A program made the translations under genes and the position numbers. Below are positions 56,007-61,617 of a stretch of DNA of 64,000 bases, piece after piece. The notes beneath the pieces are model-generated. The model was not told the DNA's origin. It saw nothing but the letters and a program-made list of their open reading frames with translations, and did not search any database. Where the stretch lies: contig NZ_QRGB01000001.1 in NCBI RefSeq assembly GCF_003449035.1, positions 434,001 to 498,000 of the forward strand. Direction: 5' to 3'. How positions within the stretch are numbered: position 1 is the stretch's first letter; the number at the start of each line of letters is the position of its first letter. This DNA comes from Pedobacter indicus. Its GTDB lineage: Bacteria > Bacteroidota > Bacteroidia > Sphingobacteriales > Sphingobacteriaceae.

Positions 56007-56744
56007 ATGGATCAACCACACTTCGAAATAAACCTCCCACAGTTTGAAGGCCCATTTGATTTACTTTTATTCTTTATAGAACGCGATGAGCTGAATATAC
56101 ACGACGTGCCTATCGCAAAGATAACACAAGATTTTCTGAATTACATTCAACAGATGACGGCTTTAAATGTCGAAATAGCAAGCGAGTTTATCCTCGTCGC
56201 CGCTACATTAATGCGCATCAAAGCACGGACATTACTACCAAGCACTCAAGATTCAGAAGGAGAGGAGGTAGACCCAAAGGAAGACCTTATACAAAAACTG
56301 ATCATATACAAGCAATTCAAAAATATTTGTGAAGAACTACGTGTTTTAGAGGAAAAGCGTAGCCATCGGGAAAAGCGCAAATACATATACCAGGATCTCG
56401 ACCGTGCAGCTGAAAGCAACGACTACCAGGAAGAGCTCCAGTCGTTTGATCTATACAAATTAATGCGCGTATACGATCGGCTGCTAAAAAACCACGCTAG
56501 CCGCACACAAGAAGTAAAACATCAAGTCGTCCAATACCCCTATACGATCGAAGCTCAAAAAAAAGCAATAACAGACCTTCTCTCGATCAATGAAAAGCTC
56601 GACTTTCAGTCCTTATTAAAAAATTCAGACAATAAGGTTCATTTTGTATATAACTTCCTGGCGATCTTAGAAATGCTCCAACAGCAACTTATCGATATAC
56701 AAGTTAAAAGTGGTTATAACAATTTTCAGGTAAGCGCGAGGTAA
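56007..56744 (+). CDS. scpA: Segregation and condensation protein A
   Basis: A 245-residue ScpA (kleisin) that joins Smc and ScpB in chromosome condensation. The family opening FEGPFDLLLFFIERDELNIH followed by DVPIAKITQDFLNYI is intact, as are EIASEFILVAATLMRIKART and the C-terminal winged-helix segment with LLKNSDNKVHFVYNFLAILE. It is a single plus-strand gene; scpB is not next to it. Its 3' end is only six bases from the convergent aldolase gene. Confidence 0.95.
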   Translation: MDQPHFEINLPQFEGPFDLLLFFIERDELNIHDVPIAKITQDFLNYIQQMTALNVEIASEFILVAATLMRIKARTLLPSTQDSEGEEVDPKEDLIQKLIIYKQFKNICEELRVLEEKRSHREKRKYIYQDLDRAAESNDYQEELQSFDLYKLMRVYDRLLKNHASRTQEVKHQVVQYPYTIEAQKKAITDLLSINEKLDFQSLLKNSDNKVHFVYNFLAILEMLQQQLIDIQVKSGYNNFQVSAR

Positions 56745-56750
56745 GCTACG

Positions 56751-57821
56751 TTAAAATGATTCTCTGTCATTTTCCAAGAAAGCTTTCACGAAATCATCAT
56801 CATTCAAATGTGGATAATCTTTATAAACGCGATCAATCTCTTCCATCTGACCTGGGGATAACTCCTCATTCGGATTAAGGCACCACCTACCTTCTAACAA
56901 ACCTTGTCTTCTTAAAACTTCGTGGATACCAGGTATACATCCATGGAAATGATTTGCCGGATCAAACAAGGCTGCATTCGTGTCGGTAATTTCAATTCCC
57001 CGTTTCTGCAATTCTTCGTATTGATCAACTGTCTTATTAACCTTAAAAGCTTTAATCTCTGCTAGAAGATCCACTGCTTTTTTAGTCCAAACCGCCCAAT
57101 GACCCAACATTCCACCAACAAAACTCTTTTCATAAGGCTTCCCTTCAACGGTGAACCGGTAAGTCGCCAAAAGGTCAGAAACTATATTATCGTCGTTGCC
57201 GGTATACATCGCTATTTCATCTCTCCTGGAACTATTACTAACAGCACGCATGACATCAAAAGTTTGATATCTATTGAATGGCGCAGCCTTAATAGCCTTT
57301 ACATTCTCAATTTCAGCAAATTTGGACCAGAAATCATAGCTGAATATCCGTCCGCCTACCGATGGTTGAAGGTAAAAGCCAAATAAAGGTATAACTTTCG
57401 CAACTTCGCGGGTTCTCTCCAGAATTTCCTCTTCTGACCAACCCTGCAATCCACCCATGCTGAGCAAACCCATATCATACCCATACTTTAGAGCTAATTC
57501 AGCTTCCTGAACAGCTTGCGGAATTGGGCCACATATTCCGGCTACTTTTAGAAAGGGTCGCTCAATAGTTGCTTTATCGATCTCATCAGCCACTACACGA
57601 ATGACAGTCTCGAATAAATTAACCTCCGGATCCCTTATTTCAAACTGCGTCGAATGTACAGCCACGGCCATACCGCCTATTCCAGTAGATACGTAATAAC
57701 GAGCTAAACGTCTCTGACGCTTTTCATCGAATTGACGCTCCTCAGTGAGAGCCAAAGGAATTGCTGGTATAACTGTACCTTCCTTTAAAAGTGTTTCTTG
57801 TTCTTTACTTAATGTTTTCAT
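56751..57821 (-). CDS. DapA/NanA-family (dihydrodipicolinate synthase family) aldolase
   Basis: A 356-residue class I aldolase-fold protein, longer than true DapA (about 295). The Schiff-base Lys is K178 in VKAIKAAPFNRYQ, and the Tyr of the proton relay is Y150 in FGFYLQPSVGGR. The GTTGE loop of DapA is replaced by VHSTQFE, so it is not a lysine-pathway DapA. Probable substrates are 2-keto acids or sugar acids. A C-terminal extension of about 60 residues with CIPGIHEVLRRQGL is typical of a Bacteroidota subgroup. It is the third gene of an operon with the SDR-family and Nramp-fold genes (one-base overlap with the former). Confidence 0.85.
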   Translation of the reverse strand: MKTLSKEQETLLKEGTVIPAIPLALTEERQFDEKRQRRLARYYVSTGIGGMAVAVHSTQFEIRDPEVNLFETVIRVVADEIDKATIERPFLKVAGICGPIPQAVQEAELALKYGYDMGLLSMGGLQGWSEEEILERTREVAKVIPLFGFYLQPSVGGRIFSYDFWSKFAEIENVKAIKAAPFNRYQTFDVMRAVSNSSRRDEIAMYTGNDDNIVSDLLATYRFTVEGKPYEKSFVGGMLGHWAVWTKKAVDLLAEIKAFKVNKTVDQYEELQKRGIEITDTNAALFDPANHFHGCIPGIHEVLRRQGLLEGRWCLNPNEELSPGQMEEIDRVYKDYPHLNDDDFVKAFLENDRESF

Positions 57822-58834
57822 TAGAATTTACCCTCCCTTTCTTGAAAATGAGTCGCTTTATTAAAAAGATCCCCTCCTTCTTTTAGCCAAGTAGCTGTAA
57901 TGTCGATTATTTCCCTGATAGAGACTTTAGGATAACCAAATAGCCGATGACACTCTGATGCATTACTGAGCAGCGCAGTCTCCTGCACCTCGTTGACAAA
58001 TTTAGGTTCTTTATCAAACGCAACACCGAACTGTTCTGCAAGCCATTTAACGGATAGGGTCTCCGGCCCTGTAACATTCAGTACCTTCGCTGGCGATTCA
58101 CAATGAAGTAACGCACGAATAGCTATTTCATTTGCATCTCCCTGCCAAATTACATTTACGTTACCCGTGCTTAAATCAATTGCTTTTCCTTCTAGTACGG
58201 CCTTTGCAACTTCCATGACCACACCGTAACGAAGATCAACGGCATAATTTAAACGGTATATTAATATTGGCGTATTATTCTTTTTTGAGAAATGCTGAAA
58301 AATACGCTCTCTACCCAAACATGATTGCCCATACTCACCAACAGGCGACGGAGCGACCTCTTCAGACAAGCCACCGCTATTTGCCGGCGAAAACGGATAG
58401 ACATTTCCACTCGAAAATGCGACGATTTTCGAGTCTTTGAAATGTTCAGCAACACGGCCAGGCAAATATGCATTCATTGCCCAGGTAAATGGTTCATTCC
58501 CGTGAGAGCCAAACTTATGTCCCGCTAAATAAATGATATTTTCCACTTTAGGCAAAGCTGCTAGATCATCCTCATTTAACAAATCGGCAGCAATAGTCTC
58601 CACACCGTCACGTTCAAGGCTTTCTCGGAGCTCCGGATCAGAAAAACGTGATACCCCAATCACTCTTTTTGAGATTCCCGTATCCGCCAACGCTCTTTTT
58701 ATCAATCTTGCCATACTTGGCCCCATCTTCCCGCCAATACCCAACAGCATAATATCACCATCTACCTTGGCAAGATCATCCAGCAACTCCGGAGAAGGTT
58801 TTAATAGCTCATACTCTAGTGCATCTAAATTCAT
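57821..58834 (-). CDS. NAD-dependent epimerase/dehydratase (SDR) family protein with Cys in place of the catalytic Lys
   Basis: A 337-residue extended-SDR protein. The dinucleotide loop reads LLGIGGKMGPSMARL (GxGGxxG), followed by AGHKFGSHGN, VAFSSGNVYPFSP and EYGQSCLGRERIF. The active-site YxxxK is Y168 and C172, so the catalytic lysine is missing. It may still bind NAD(P) but use other chemistry or act as a non-enzymatic sensor. It lies between the Nramp-fold transporter and the aldolase, overlapping the latter by one base, so all three are cotranscribed. The substrate is unknown. Confidence 0.85.
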   Translation of the reverse strand: MNLDALEYELLKPSPELLDDLAKVDGDIMLLGIGGKMGPSMARLIKRALADTGISKRVIGVSRFSDPELRESLERDGVETIAADLLNEDDLAALPKVENIIYLAGHKFGSHGNEPFTWAMNAYLPGRVAEHFKDSKIVAFSSGNVYPFSPANSGGLSEEVAPSPVGEYGQSCLGRERIFQHFSKKNNTPILIYRLNYAVDLRYGVVMEVAKAVLEGKAIDLSTGNVNVIWQGDANEIAIRALLHCESPAKVLNVTGPETLSVKWLAEQFGVAFDKEPKFVNEVQETALLSNASECHRLFGYPKVSIREIIDITATWLKEGGDLFNKATHFQEREGKF

Positions 58835-58871
58835 ATCGTAACATTTATATTTTAAAAAATCATACCCGTTT

Positions 58872-60113
58872 TTACTTTAAAAACATATCGTATACATTGT
58901 AAATTGCCAAGGCTAGTAAAACAACCAATCCTAGACCACCTATAATCTTAGAAAAACCCTTGTTGACATAGATTCCCATAATATCCTTTCGGTTTGCAAT
59001 CGAAAACATAGCCACTCCGATAAAAGGCACCAAAAAGATAGTAATGCTTTGCGCGAAAACAATCAATTCCAGCGGGAGTTTCCCAAACAAAATAGCGATA
59101 AGAGACCCACAAACCATGACCAATCCAATCAATACTCGCGTGATCGGGGAATCTAGTTTACTCCCATAACCCAATGCATCGCTCAACAGTGTGCCTCCAA
59201 GTGTGGCATTACCGACGAGAGATGAAAATGAAGCACCGAACAGTCCCACTAAAAACATATCAGAAGCGTAAACTCCAAAAAGTGGTTCTAGAGCCTTAGC
59301 CATATCGGAAGCACTGGTCACCGAGATCCCTTGTGGATTTAGAACAGCTGCTGCACAAATCAACACGACGGCACTCATAATACCTAGAATAATAATACCG
59401 GTTAGACTACCGCTGCCCCCCTTTTTATGTTGACCGTCTTCACCAACATCAATAATCCCTTTCCGCTTTCTTTCCTGAACCAGATAAGCTTGATAAAACG
59501 CACCCGTTATAGAAAAACACGAGGCAATAAATGCGATGACCAGACCTTCTGACCCCAACGGTATGGAAGGGGCAAAACCTTGAACAATGCCTGCAATATC
59601 AGGTTTAGCGAAAAACAACGTTGTAACAAAGGAAAACAACATAATACTCACCAGAAGAATCATCAGCTTTTCAAGAATTCCATAAAATTTCCGGAAGAAC
59701 AGAAGAAATATACCGATCAAATTAAAAACGACAATCCAAGTAACTGTTGATGTGGCACTGGCTTCCGCTACTGCAATCCCAACGCCGACAGAGTTACCCG
59801 CCTGAAATGAGGTAGCAACGAGGAATATACCTATACCGATAATAACAGCGGCAGCTTTGCTCCATTTCTCACGTATGATTGTTAAAAGGGAGCGGCTATC
59901 GGCTAAACCGATCCTTTCTCCGATATTAGTAAATACCGCCATAAAGAGAATAGCAACCGCGACTATCCATAGTAAAGAATAACCATACACTGCTCCTAGC
60001 TTCGTTGTTATTGTTATTTTACTAGGTCCGAATACCAACGCCGCAGTAATAATACCTGGCCCTAATGACAGCAGCCATTTGATAAGTGGGTTTTTTGTTT
60101 TTGGTTTATTCAT
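58872..60113 (-). CDS. Nramp-fold transporter lacking canonical metal-binding motifs
   Basis: A 413-residue, about 11-segment membrane protein. The overall pattern follows Nramp (SLGPGIITAALVFGPSKITI in TM1, then GYSLLWIVAVAILF and IGERIG). In true Nramps, TM1 has DPGN and TM6 MPH, which bind Mn/Fe. Here the TM1 positions read GPSK (residues 29-32) and TM6 reads SITGAFYQAYL (201-211), so both sites are changed. It is likely to carry another substrate: Mg2+ as in Nramp-related Mg transporters, or an organic acid. The operon context with an aldolase and an SDR-family gene favours an organic substrate, but this is inference. It is the first gene of the operon. Confidence 0.85.
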   Translation of the reverse strand: MNKPKTKNPLIKWLLSLGPGIITAALVFGPSKITITTKLGAVYGYSLLWIVAVAILFMAVFTNIGERIGLADSRSLLTIIREKWSKAAAVIIGIGIFLVATSFQAGNSVGVGIAVAEASATSTVTWIVVFNLIGIFLLFFRKFYGILEKLMILLVSIMLFSFVTTLFFAKPDIAGIVQGFAPSIPLGSEGLVIAFIASCFSITGAFYQAYLVQERKRKGIIDVGEDGQHKKGGSGSLTGIIILGIMSAVVLICAAAVLNPQGISVTSASDMAKALEPLFGVYASDMFLVGLFGASFSSLVGNATLGGTLLSDALGYGSKLDSPITRVLIGLVMVCGSLIAILFGKLPLELIVFAQSITIFLVPFIGVAMFSIANRKDIMGIYVNKGFSKIIGGLGLVVLLALAIYNVYDMFLK

Positions 60114-60345: not shown

Positions 60346-61617
60346 ATGGAAAGAGATAATCTAATATTTGACCTGATCAATGAAGAATTGGAGAGGCAAG
60401 AAGAAGGTTTGGAATTAATCGCCTCAGAAAATTTTGTAAGCAAACAGGTTATGGAAGCTGCCGGGTCTGTATTGACCAATAAATATGCAGAAGGGCTTCC
60501 CGGAAAACGTTATTATGGAGGCTGCGAGGTAGTTGACGAGATTGAAACCATCGCCATCGACCGCGCCAAGCAACTATTTAACGCCGAGTGGGCCAACGTG
60601 CAACCTCACTCCGGAGCACAGGCAAATGCAGCCGTTTTTTTAGCAGTACTGAAACCGGGCGACAAAATATTAGGTTTTGACCTTTCTCATGGTGGACATT
60701 TAACTCACGGCTCGCCGGTAAACTCCTCTGGCAAACTTTACGAACCTCATTTCTATGGTGTCGAAAAAGAGACAGGAAGAATAGATTATAAAGCGTTGGA
60801 AGAAACCGCTCTTCGCGAAAAACCAAAATTGATTATTTGTGGTGCTTCTGCATACTCACGCGATTGGGATTACAAATTTATCCGCGAAGTAGCCGACAAG
60901 ATCGGAGCATTGGTATTAGCTGACATTTCCCACCCTGCCGGACTGATTGCCCGCGGACTTTTAAACGATCCTCTTCCTCATTGCCATATCGTAACAACAA
61001 CAACACATAAAACGCTTCGTGGACCGCGTGGAGGATTAATCTTATTGGGTAAAGATTTTGAAAATCCATTTGGTTTGAAAACACCTAAAGGAGAGATTCG
61101 GATGATGTCGTCCTTGCTAGATCTGGCTGTTTTCCCAGGTACACAAGGAGGCCCACTTGAACATACCATCGCTGCGAAAGCAATTGCTTTCGGCGAAGCT
61201 TTGAGTGACGAATACATGGATTATATCGTTCAGGTAAAGAAAAATGCAGAAGCAATGGCTCATGCCTTCATTGAGAAAGACTATCAAGTTATATCGGGTG
61301 GAACAGACAACCACTTGATGCTTATCGACCTGCGCAATAAGGATATAACAGGAAAAGTAGCCGAACGTGTTTTAGGTGAAGCAGGTATTACCATTAATAA
61401 AAACATGATCCCTTTTGATGACAAATCGGCCTTCATAACTTCTGGAATTCGTGTAGGAACAGCCGCAATTACTACCCGTGGACTTAAGGAAGCGGATATG
61501 AAAACAGTCGTGGACTTTATTGACGAAGCATTGGTGAGCCACGAAGACGAAGAAAAATTAGCCGACATCCATAATCAAGTCAATGAAATGATGGCACGTT
61601 TTCCTCTCTATAAATAA
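60346..61617 (+). CDS. glyA: Serine hydroxymethyltransferase
   Basis: A 423-residue PLP enzyme that interconverts serine and glycine and charges tetrahydrofolate with C1 units. The N-terminus ([20 protein letters not shown]) and [18 protein letters not shown] are standard; the PLP lysine is K222 in [29 protein letters not shown] holds the cofactor-binding Asp-His. The sequence is full length. It has its own promoter and an intrinsic terminator at 61684-61720. Confidence 0.97.

Follow-up and report, generated by a model that had tools for sequence, protein, structure and literature searches.

The closest described precedent for a carrier of the Nramp family encoded together with enzymes that use an organic acid is PxpT of Corynebacterium glutamicum, which was assigned to PF01566 by its homology to YcsG and is needed for growth on 5-oxoproline; its deletion abolishes growth, and transport of 5-oxoproline was inferred from this phenotype (PMC13274462). 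YcsG, on the other hand, has been reported as a Mn importer that raises cellular Mn (PMC10448178). Nramp-related proteins devoid of the metal motif form a known outgroup of the family (PMC12873925, PMC9606685, PMC4072509). The NRMTs (e.g. EleNRMT, 7QIA) are likewise non-canonical PF01566 proteins without DPGN or MPH, and EleNRMT is cited in PMC12873925 as a carrier of Mg. A different set of systems, the sugar-acid operons xynABC, yjh and yag (PMC12445098), combines a transporter with a DapA-family aldolase; their transporter is of the MFS type, a dehydratase is included and the aldolases are ordinary DapA-like (DHDPS-type) enzymes. PMC12445098 was also considered as a link between Nramp proteins and sugar acids and was discarded as such, its mentions of Nramp being mouse genotypes.

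The locus described here shares with PxpT/YcsG the association of an Nramp-family carrier with enzymes, but differs from it in the clade of the carrier, which is only 28-29% identical to the pxpA-linked members found here, in the enzymes and presumably in the substrate. It resembles the sugar-acid operons in joining a transporter to a DapA-family aldolase, but its Nramp-related carrier and its short-chain dehydrogenase/reductase (SDR)-like protein lacking the catalytic Lys have no counterpart in them. In the literature searched, the gene trio has not been described. An earlier note, made from the DNA sequence alone, regarded the trio as a new use of the Nramp fold; that novelty has to be given up, PF01566 proteins of the PxpT/YcsG type having already been tied to 5-oxoproline uptake.

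A conserved three-gene cassette between scpA and glyA

The window, a stretch of 64,000 nucleotides from the Pedobacter indicus contig NZ_QRGB01000001.1, carries three minus-strand open reading frames [Table 1] that are as tightly spaced as originally noted, the carrier and SDR genes being separated by a 37-base gap and the SDR and aldolase genes sharing a one-base overlap (TAATG).

Table 1. Genes of the trio and of its flanks, in window coordinates.
Feature	Position	Strand	Basis
Nramp-related (PF01566) membrane carrier, 413 aa	58872..60113	-	Pfam, PDB profile matches, tree
Extended-SDR-like (NAD-dependent epimerase/dehydratase-like) protein, 337 aa	57821..58834	-	Profile matches, site tallies
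DapA/NanA-superfamily class I aldolase-like protein, 356 aa	56751..57821	-	Profile matches, conserved Lys178
scpA, left flank of trio	56007..56744	+	Synteny comparison
glyA, right flank of trio	60346..61617	+	Synteny comparison

The three-gene order was sought across Bacteroidota. The aldolase gave seven matches in 60 related genomes, and a PF01566 search found a carrier of the trio type in the same seven; the carrier, used as query against 395 genomes of the class, yielded four further loci, and a search of the phylum with the aldolase added one more trio (G674), an SDR-aldolase pair without the carrier (G556) and a distant aldolase (G435), all of these genome sets being samples rather than censuses. 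Carrier, SDR and aldolase genes are adjacent in all 12 trio loci (that of the window and 11 others), which account for every carrier of this type found in Bacteroidota, and the trio is a genuine, conserved cassette. A contig scan for the carrier only, relying on unspecific peptides, returned nothing beyond one distant match, and viral contigs held no relatives of the aldolase or the SDR. Pairwise distances of the three proteins were concordant over the 12 loci (Mantel r of 0.91, 0.84 and 0.86), and their fit to the distances of the host marker ScpA was poor (0.42, 0.18 and 0.13), a weak comparison that covers six hosts only.

The genes dxs, scpA and glyA usually lie side by side in relatives. 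Fewer than 300 bases separate glyA from scpA in 14 of the relatives' 23 scpA loci (the loci are short, and absence from the others says little), one of the 14 being that of a congener (G001) that has no trio. In the Pedobacter indicus genome, the trio separates scpA from glyA. Because of this position, and of the patchy presence of the trio, its gain by horizontal transfer is what the comparison points to, and the cassette probably moves horizontally between bacteria.

The carrier falls in a clade of Nramp-related proteins devoid of the metal-site residues

The carrier is a member of the Pfam Nramp family (4.7e-64) whose best match among PDB profiles is EleNRMT (5.9e-42), DraNramp being matched as well. 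Alignment with DraNramp sets G29-P30-S31-K32 at the DPGN site of TM1 and S201-I202-T203 at the MPH site of TM6, where FSIT faces VMPH; both departures from the canonical motifs, already read off the translated sequence, are thus seen against a reference structure. They extend to the whole clade: GPSK or GPG[S,T,N] stands in the place of the DPGN of canonical Nramp/MntH (Slc11) proteins in all 15 members, as does S-[ILV]-[VATN] in that of MPH, and none of them has the metal-site Asp of TM1 or the metal-site Met and His of TM6. In DraNramp numbering, clade members have Gly at D56 with Lys, Ser, Thr or Asn at N59, and Ser at M230 with Val, Ala, Thr or Asn at H232. The proton-pathway residues of TM3 are missing too, Gln (Ser once) being found at Asp131 and Asn at Glu134. 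With metal-site and proton-pathway residues both absent, the carrier is unlikely to handle Mn or Fe, which favours the initial proposal that it works on something else.

A tree built from 43 PF01566 proteins (midpoint-rooted, with weak deep forks) unites the trio carriers, a Neorhizobium carrier and two haloarchaeal carriers in one clade with a support of 100/99; canonical Nramps (including DraNramp and MntH), NRMT and the pxpA- or oxoprolinase-linked carriers lie elsewhere. Pfam score, tree position and want of DPGN and MPH all fit membership of the Nramp-related outgroup. Since the proteins of this outgroup are known not to have these residues, the carrier's line probably never possessed them, and the statement that the transporter 'has lost DPGN' is not supported. 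The sister carriers have other company: that of Neorhizobium adjoins a different DapA-family aldolase, with NCBIfam dapA and nanA matches under the cut-off, and heparinase, sulfatase and Gfo/Idh genes occur in the neighbourhood of the haloarchaeal ones.

The SDR-like protein and the aldolase have family-wide changes at their active sites

The SDR-like protein had no Pfam match above the cut-off; profiles built from its relatives matched the TerB oxidoreductase (4e-10) and the archaeal UDP-glucose 4-epimerase 3ehe (2e-8). It has in common with extended SDRs of the GalE/TerB type a Rossmann half with the GxGGKxG nucleotide motif, in which GGKxG is invariant, as well as Ser141 and Tyr168, the latter two retained in 21 of 21 aligned relatives. 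The N-terminal half showed the alpha/beta order of a Rossmann half in an AlphaFold model, although the models, computed without an alignment, were of low confidence (mean pLDDT of 43.1 for the SDR and 44.5 for the carrier). Where 3ehe and TerB have the Lys of YxxxK, the protein has Cys172, in agreement with the residue assignment made at the outset; no relative has this Lys (0/21), YxxSC being found in 19 and Val at the site in the remaining two. Lys107, Arg175, Glu176 and Arg194 are invariant in the 21 sequences.

The aldolase matches Pfam DHDPS weakly (0.001, under the curated cut-off), but profiles from its relatives matched N-acetylneuraminate lyase (7e-10) and DapA structures. In the alignment to N-acetylneuraminate lyase, Lys178, noted at the outset as the Schiff-base Lys, and Tyr150 fall on the Lys and Tyr of that enzyme; Lys178 is kept in 21 of 21 relatives and Tyr150 in 19, being missing in two. 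The carboxylate loop had been described as VHSTQFE instead of GTTGE. This description stands for its second half, H-[ST]-T-Q-F having Gln-Phe where the G-[ST]-T-G-E of DapA has Gly-Glu, but not for the Ser/Thr-Thr part, which aligns and is kept, Thr58 included. A longer C-terminal part further distinguishes the 356-residue protein from N-acetylneuraminate lyase and DapA. Class I aldolases of the DapA/NanA type need no metal.

As almost every relative examined shares the SDR and aldolase features, they reflect neither chance nor decay, and the missing YxxxK Lys is, from these alignments, a trait of the SDR family. Canonical DPGN or MPH motifs, whose predominance among homologues the earlier note would have held against its proposal, as it would that of YxxxK, were absent from all 12 trios, and YxxxK was absent from all 21 SDRs. 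In two actinobacterial pairs (L017 and L018), Val replaces the SDR Lys while the aldolase Tyr is replaced by Ser or Ala; these are possibly a subgroup with a different reaction.

The SDR-aldolase pair is found with other transporters in other phyla

The Lys-less SDR family extends over five phyla, the SDR-aldolase pair being also present in Bacillota, Actinomycetota, Planctomycetota and Alphaproteobacteria. Plasmids carry it in Paenibacillus, Mesobacillus, Aquisphaera, Nitratireductor, Streptomyces, Tistrella, Sulfitobacter, Prescottella, Glaciihabitans and Rhodococcus. Importers lie near the pair in eight of the ten loci read: carbohydrate ABC importers in Paenibacillus, Streptomyces and Glaciihabitans, ABC permease and ATPase genes with a binding protein in Tistrella and Sulfitobacter, MFS carriers in Prescottella and Rhodococcus, and a tripartite tricarboxylate transporter in Nitratireductor. 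No transporter adjoins the pair in the Mesobacillus and Aquisphaera loci. That solute importers take its place elsewhere is the strongest argument that the Nramp-related protein carries an organic solute. A gene for a GNAT-type acetyltransferase was also seen near the pair in several phyla (L014, L015, L011 and L091).

Neighbour genes suggest a sugar acid as substrate

Fusions of a PQQ-type sugar dehydrogenase (GSDH) to cytochrome c, which we take to be periplasmic, adjoin the trio in four loci (L024, L026, L027 and L092), and a PQQ dehydrogenase gene lies near the carrier-less pair of G556. The Pedobacter indicus genome encodes a full-length GSDH-cytochrome c homologue away from the trio, 47% identical to the protein of L024. 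One locus (L029) has a galactonate-dehydratase match above the curated cut-off, two others (L025 and L033) have enolase-superfamily proteins near the trio, and Gfo/Idh oxidoreductases are found near it in five (L026, L028, L029, L030 and L033). Going by these neighbours, the simplest story would be one of periplasmic aldose oxidation, sugar-acid import and cleavage. Periplasmic quinoprotein dehydrogenases would convert an aldose to a sugar acid (an aldonate or keto-aldonate); the Nramp-related carrier would import a small organic carboxylate, most likely that sugar acid; the SDR-like protein, with a bound nicotinamide cofactor, would act either on the acid so taken up or on a derivative of it; and the aldolase, an enzyme of class I, would form a Schiff base through Lys178 and cleave a 2-keto acid to give pyruvate plus an aldehyde. 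The direction of transport, the class of substrate, the order of the enzyme steps and the chemistry of the SDR are those that we infer.

Linkage and neighbour genes thus favour the uptake-and-cleavage unit for an organic acid first suggested for this locus, and we give a probability of roughly 0.6 to the trio being a horizontally moving module of this kind whose substrate is most likely a sugar acid. Several observations count against it. The neighbours vary by locus, and no one sugar acid suits all; in the Pedobacter indicus genome the trio has neither a dehydratase nor a dehydrogenase gene next to it; some loci hold a second transporter (SSF or MFS), so that the importer may be a protein other than the Nramp-related one; and Tyr150 is missing from two of the 21 aldolases.

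Alternative readings of the trio

Instead of a sugar acid, the substrate might be some other organic acid, for example an amino or lactam acid resembling 5-oxoproline, or an N-acylated amino-sugar acid. PxpT/YcsG and the oxoprolinase-linked members are PF01566 carriers (PMC13274462), genes for M20 peptidases/deacylases, GNAT proteins, aminotransferases and a serine ammonia-lyase lie near some copies, and N-acetylneuraminate lyase is the enzyme to which the aldolase comes closest. Yet the oxoprolinase-linked carriers make up a separate group with 27-29% identity, and the genes more often met as neighbours are those for quinoprotein sugar dehydrogenases, the galactonate-type dehydratase and sugar transporters, so that we hold a non-sugar substrate to be unlikely. 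The Pedobacter indicus genome has no match to LamB_YcsF (PxpA), and its carrier is without pxpABC linkage.

A second alternative, that the carrier moves a divalent metal (e.g. Mg or Mn) through an altered site, supplying the linked enzymes or replacing MntH, is kept alive by the Mn import claimed for YcsG, which also counts against an organic acid as substrate. The trio carrier is the sole PF01566 protein of the Pedobacter indicus genome, which encodes no canonical MntH, a canonical MntH-type protein of 620-640 residues being present in the congener and in most relatives; this, too, speaks for a metal carrier and against an organic-acid carrier. Mg transport by EleNRMT, which lacks the canonical motif, likewise favours the metal reading. 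EleNRMT, however, occupies a different position in the tree and retains the acidic TM1 Asp and TM3 Glu, the clade having Gly, Gln and Asn at D56, D131 and E134. Six other trio genomes of the same family encode a canonical MntH-type protein besides the trio carrier, FeoB is present in the Pedobacter indicus genome, the linked aldolase is of a metal-independent class, and the carrier's place is taken by solute importers in other phyla. Metal transport is on balance improbable.

Although related strains can retain gene order without a common function, adjacency by chance or hitch-hiking, with the carrier in an unrelated role, is scarcely credible and was rejected on the linkage counts, the 12 out of 12 loci spanning several families, carrier identities down to 35%, differing flanks and a patchy distribution.

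Extending the sugar-acid reading beyond the trio is more tentative: the whole Nramp-related clade of Bacteroidota, Rhizobiales and haloarchaea might consist of sugar-acid carriers, and the SDR might be a redox enzyme or epimerase with a substitute residue, perhaps Lys107 or Arg175. If so, the Nramp fold would serve organic acids beyond the 5-oxoproline branch. There are many Nramp-related proteins that lack the metal site; most are uncharacterised, and annotation routinely makes them divalent metal transporters. A clade whose genes accompany those for an aldolase and an SDR offers a testable class of organic substrates and would correct many annotations. It also bears on the question of whether metal-carrying Nramps arose from carriers of organic solutes.

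Other non-canonical PF01566 proteins came to light alongside the trio. Bacteroidota also have pxpA-linked Nramp-related carriers like PxpT (L115:5305-6531 and L117:5286-6500), and a haloarchaeal Nramp-related carrier lies in an apparent operon with hydantoinase/oxoprolinase genes (L043:7019-11847). More Bacteroidota groups without DPGN or MPH occupy distinct deep branches (L103, L108, L104, L105, L106, L107, L095 and L096).
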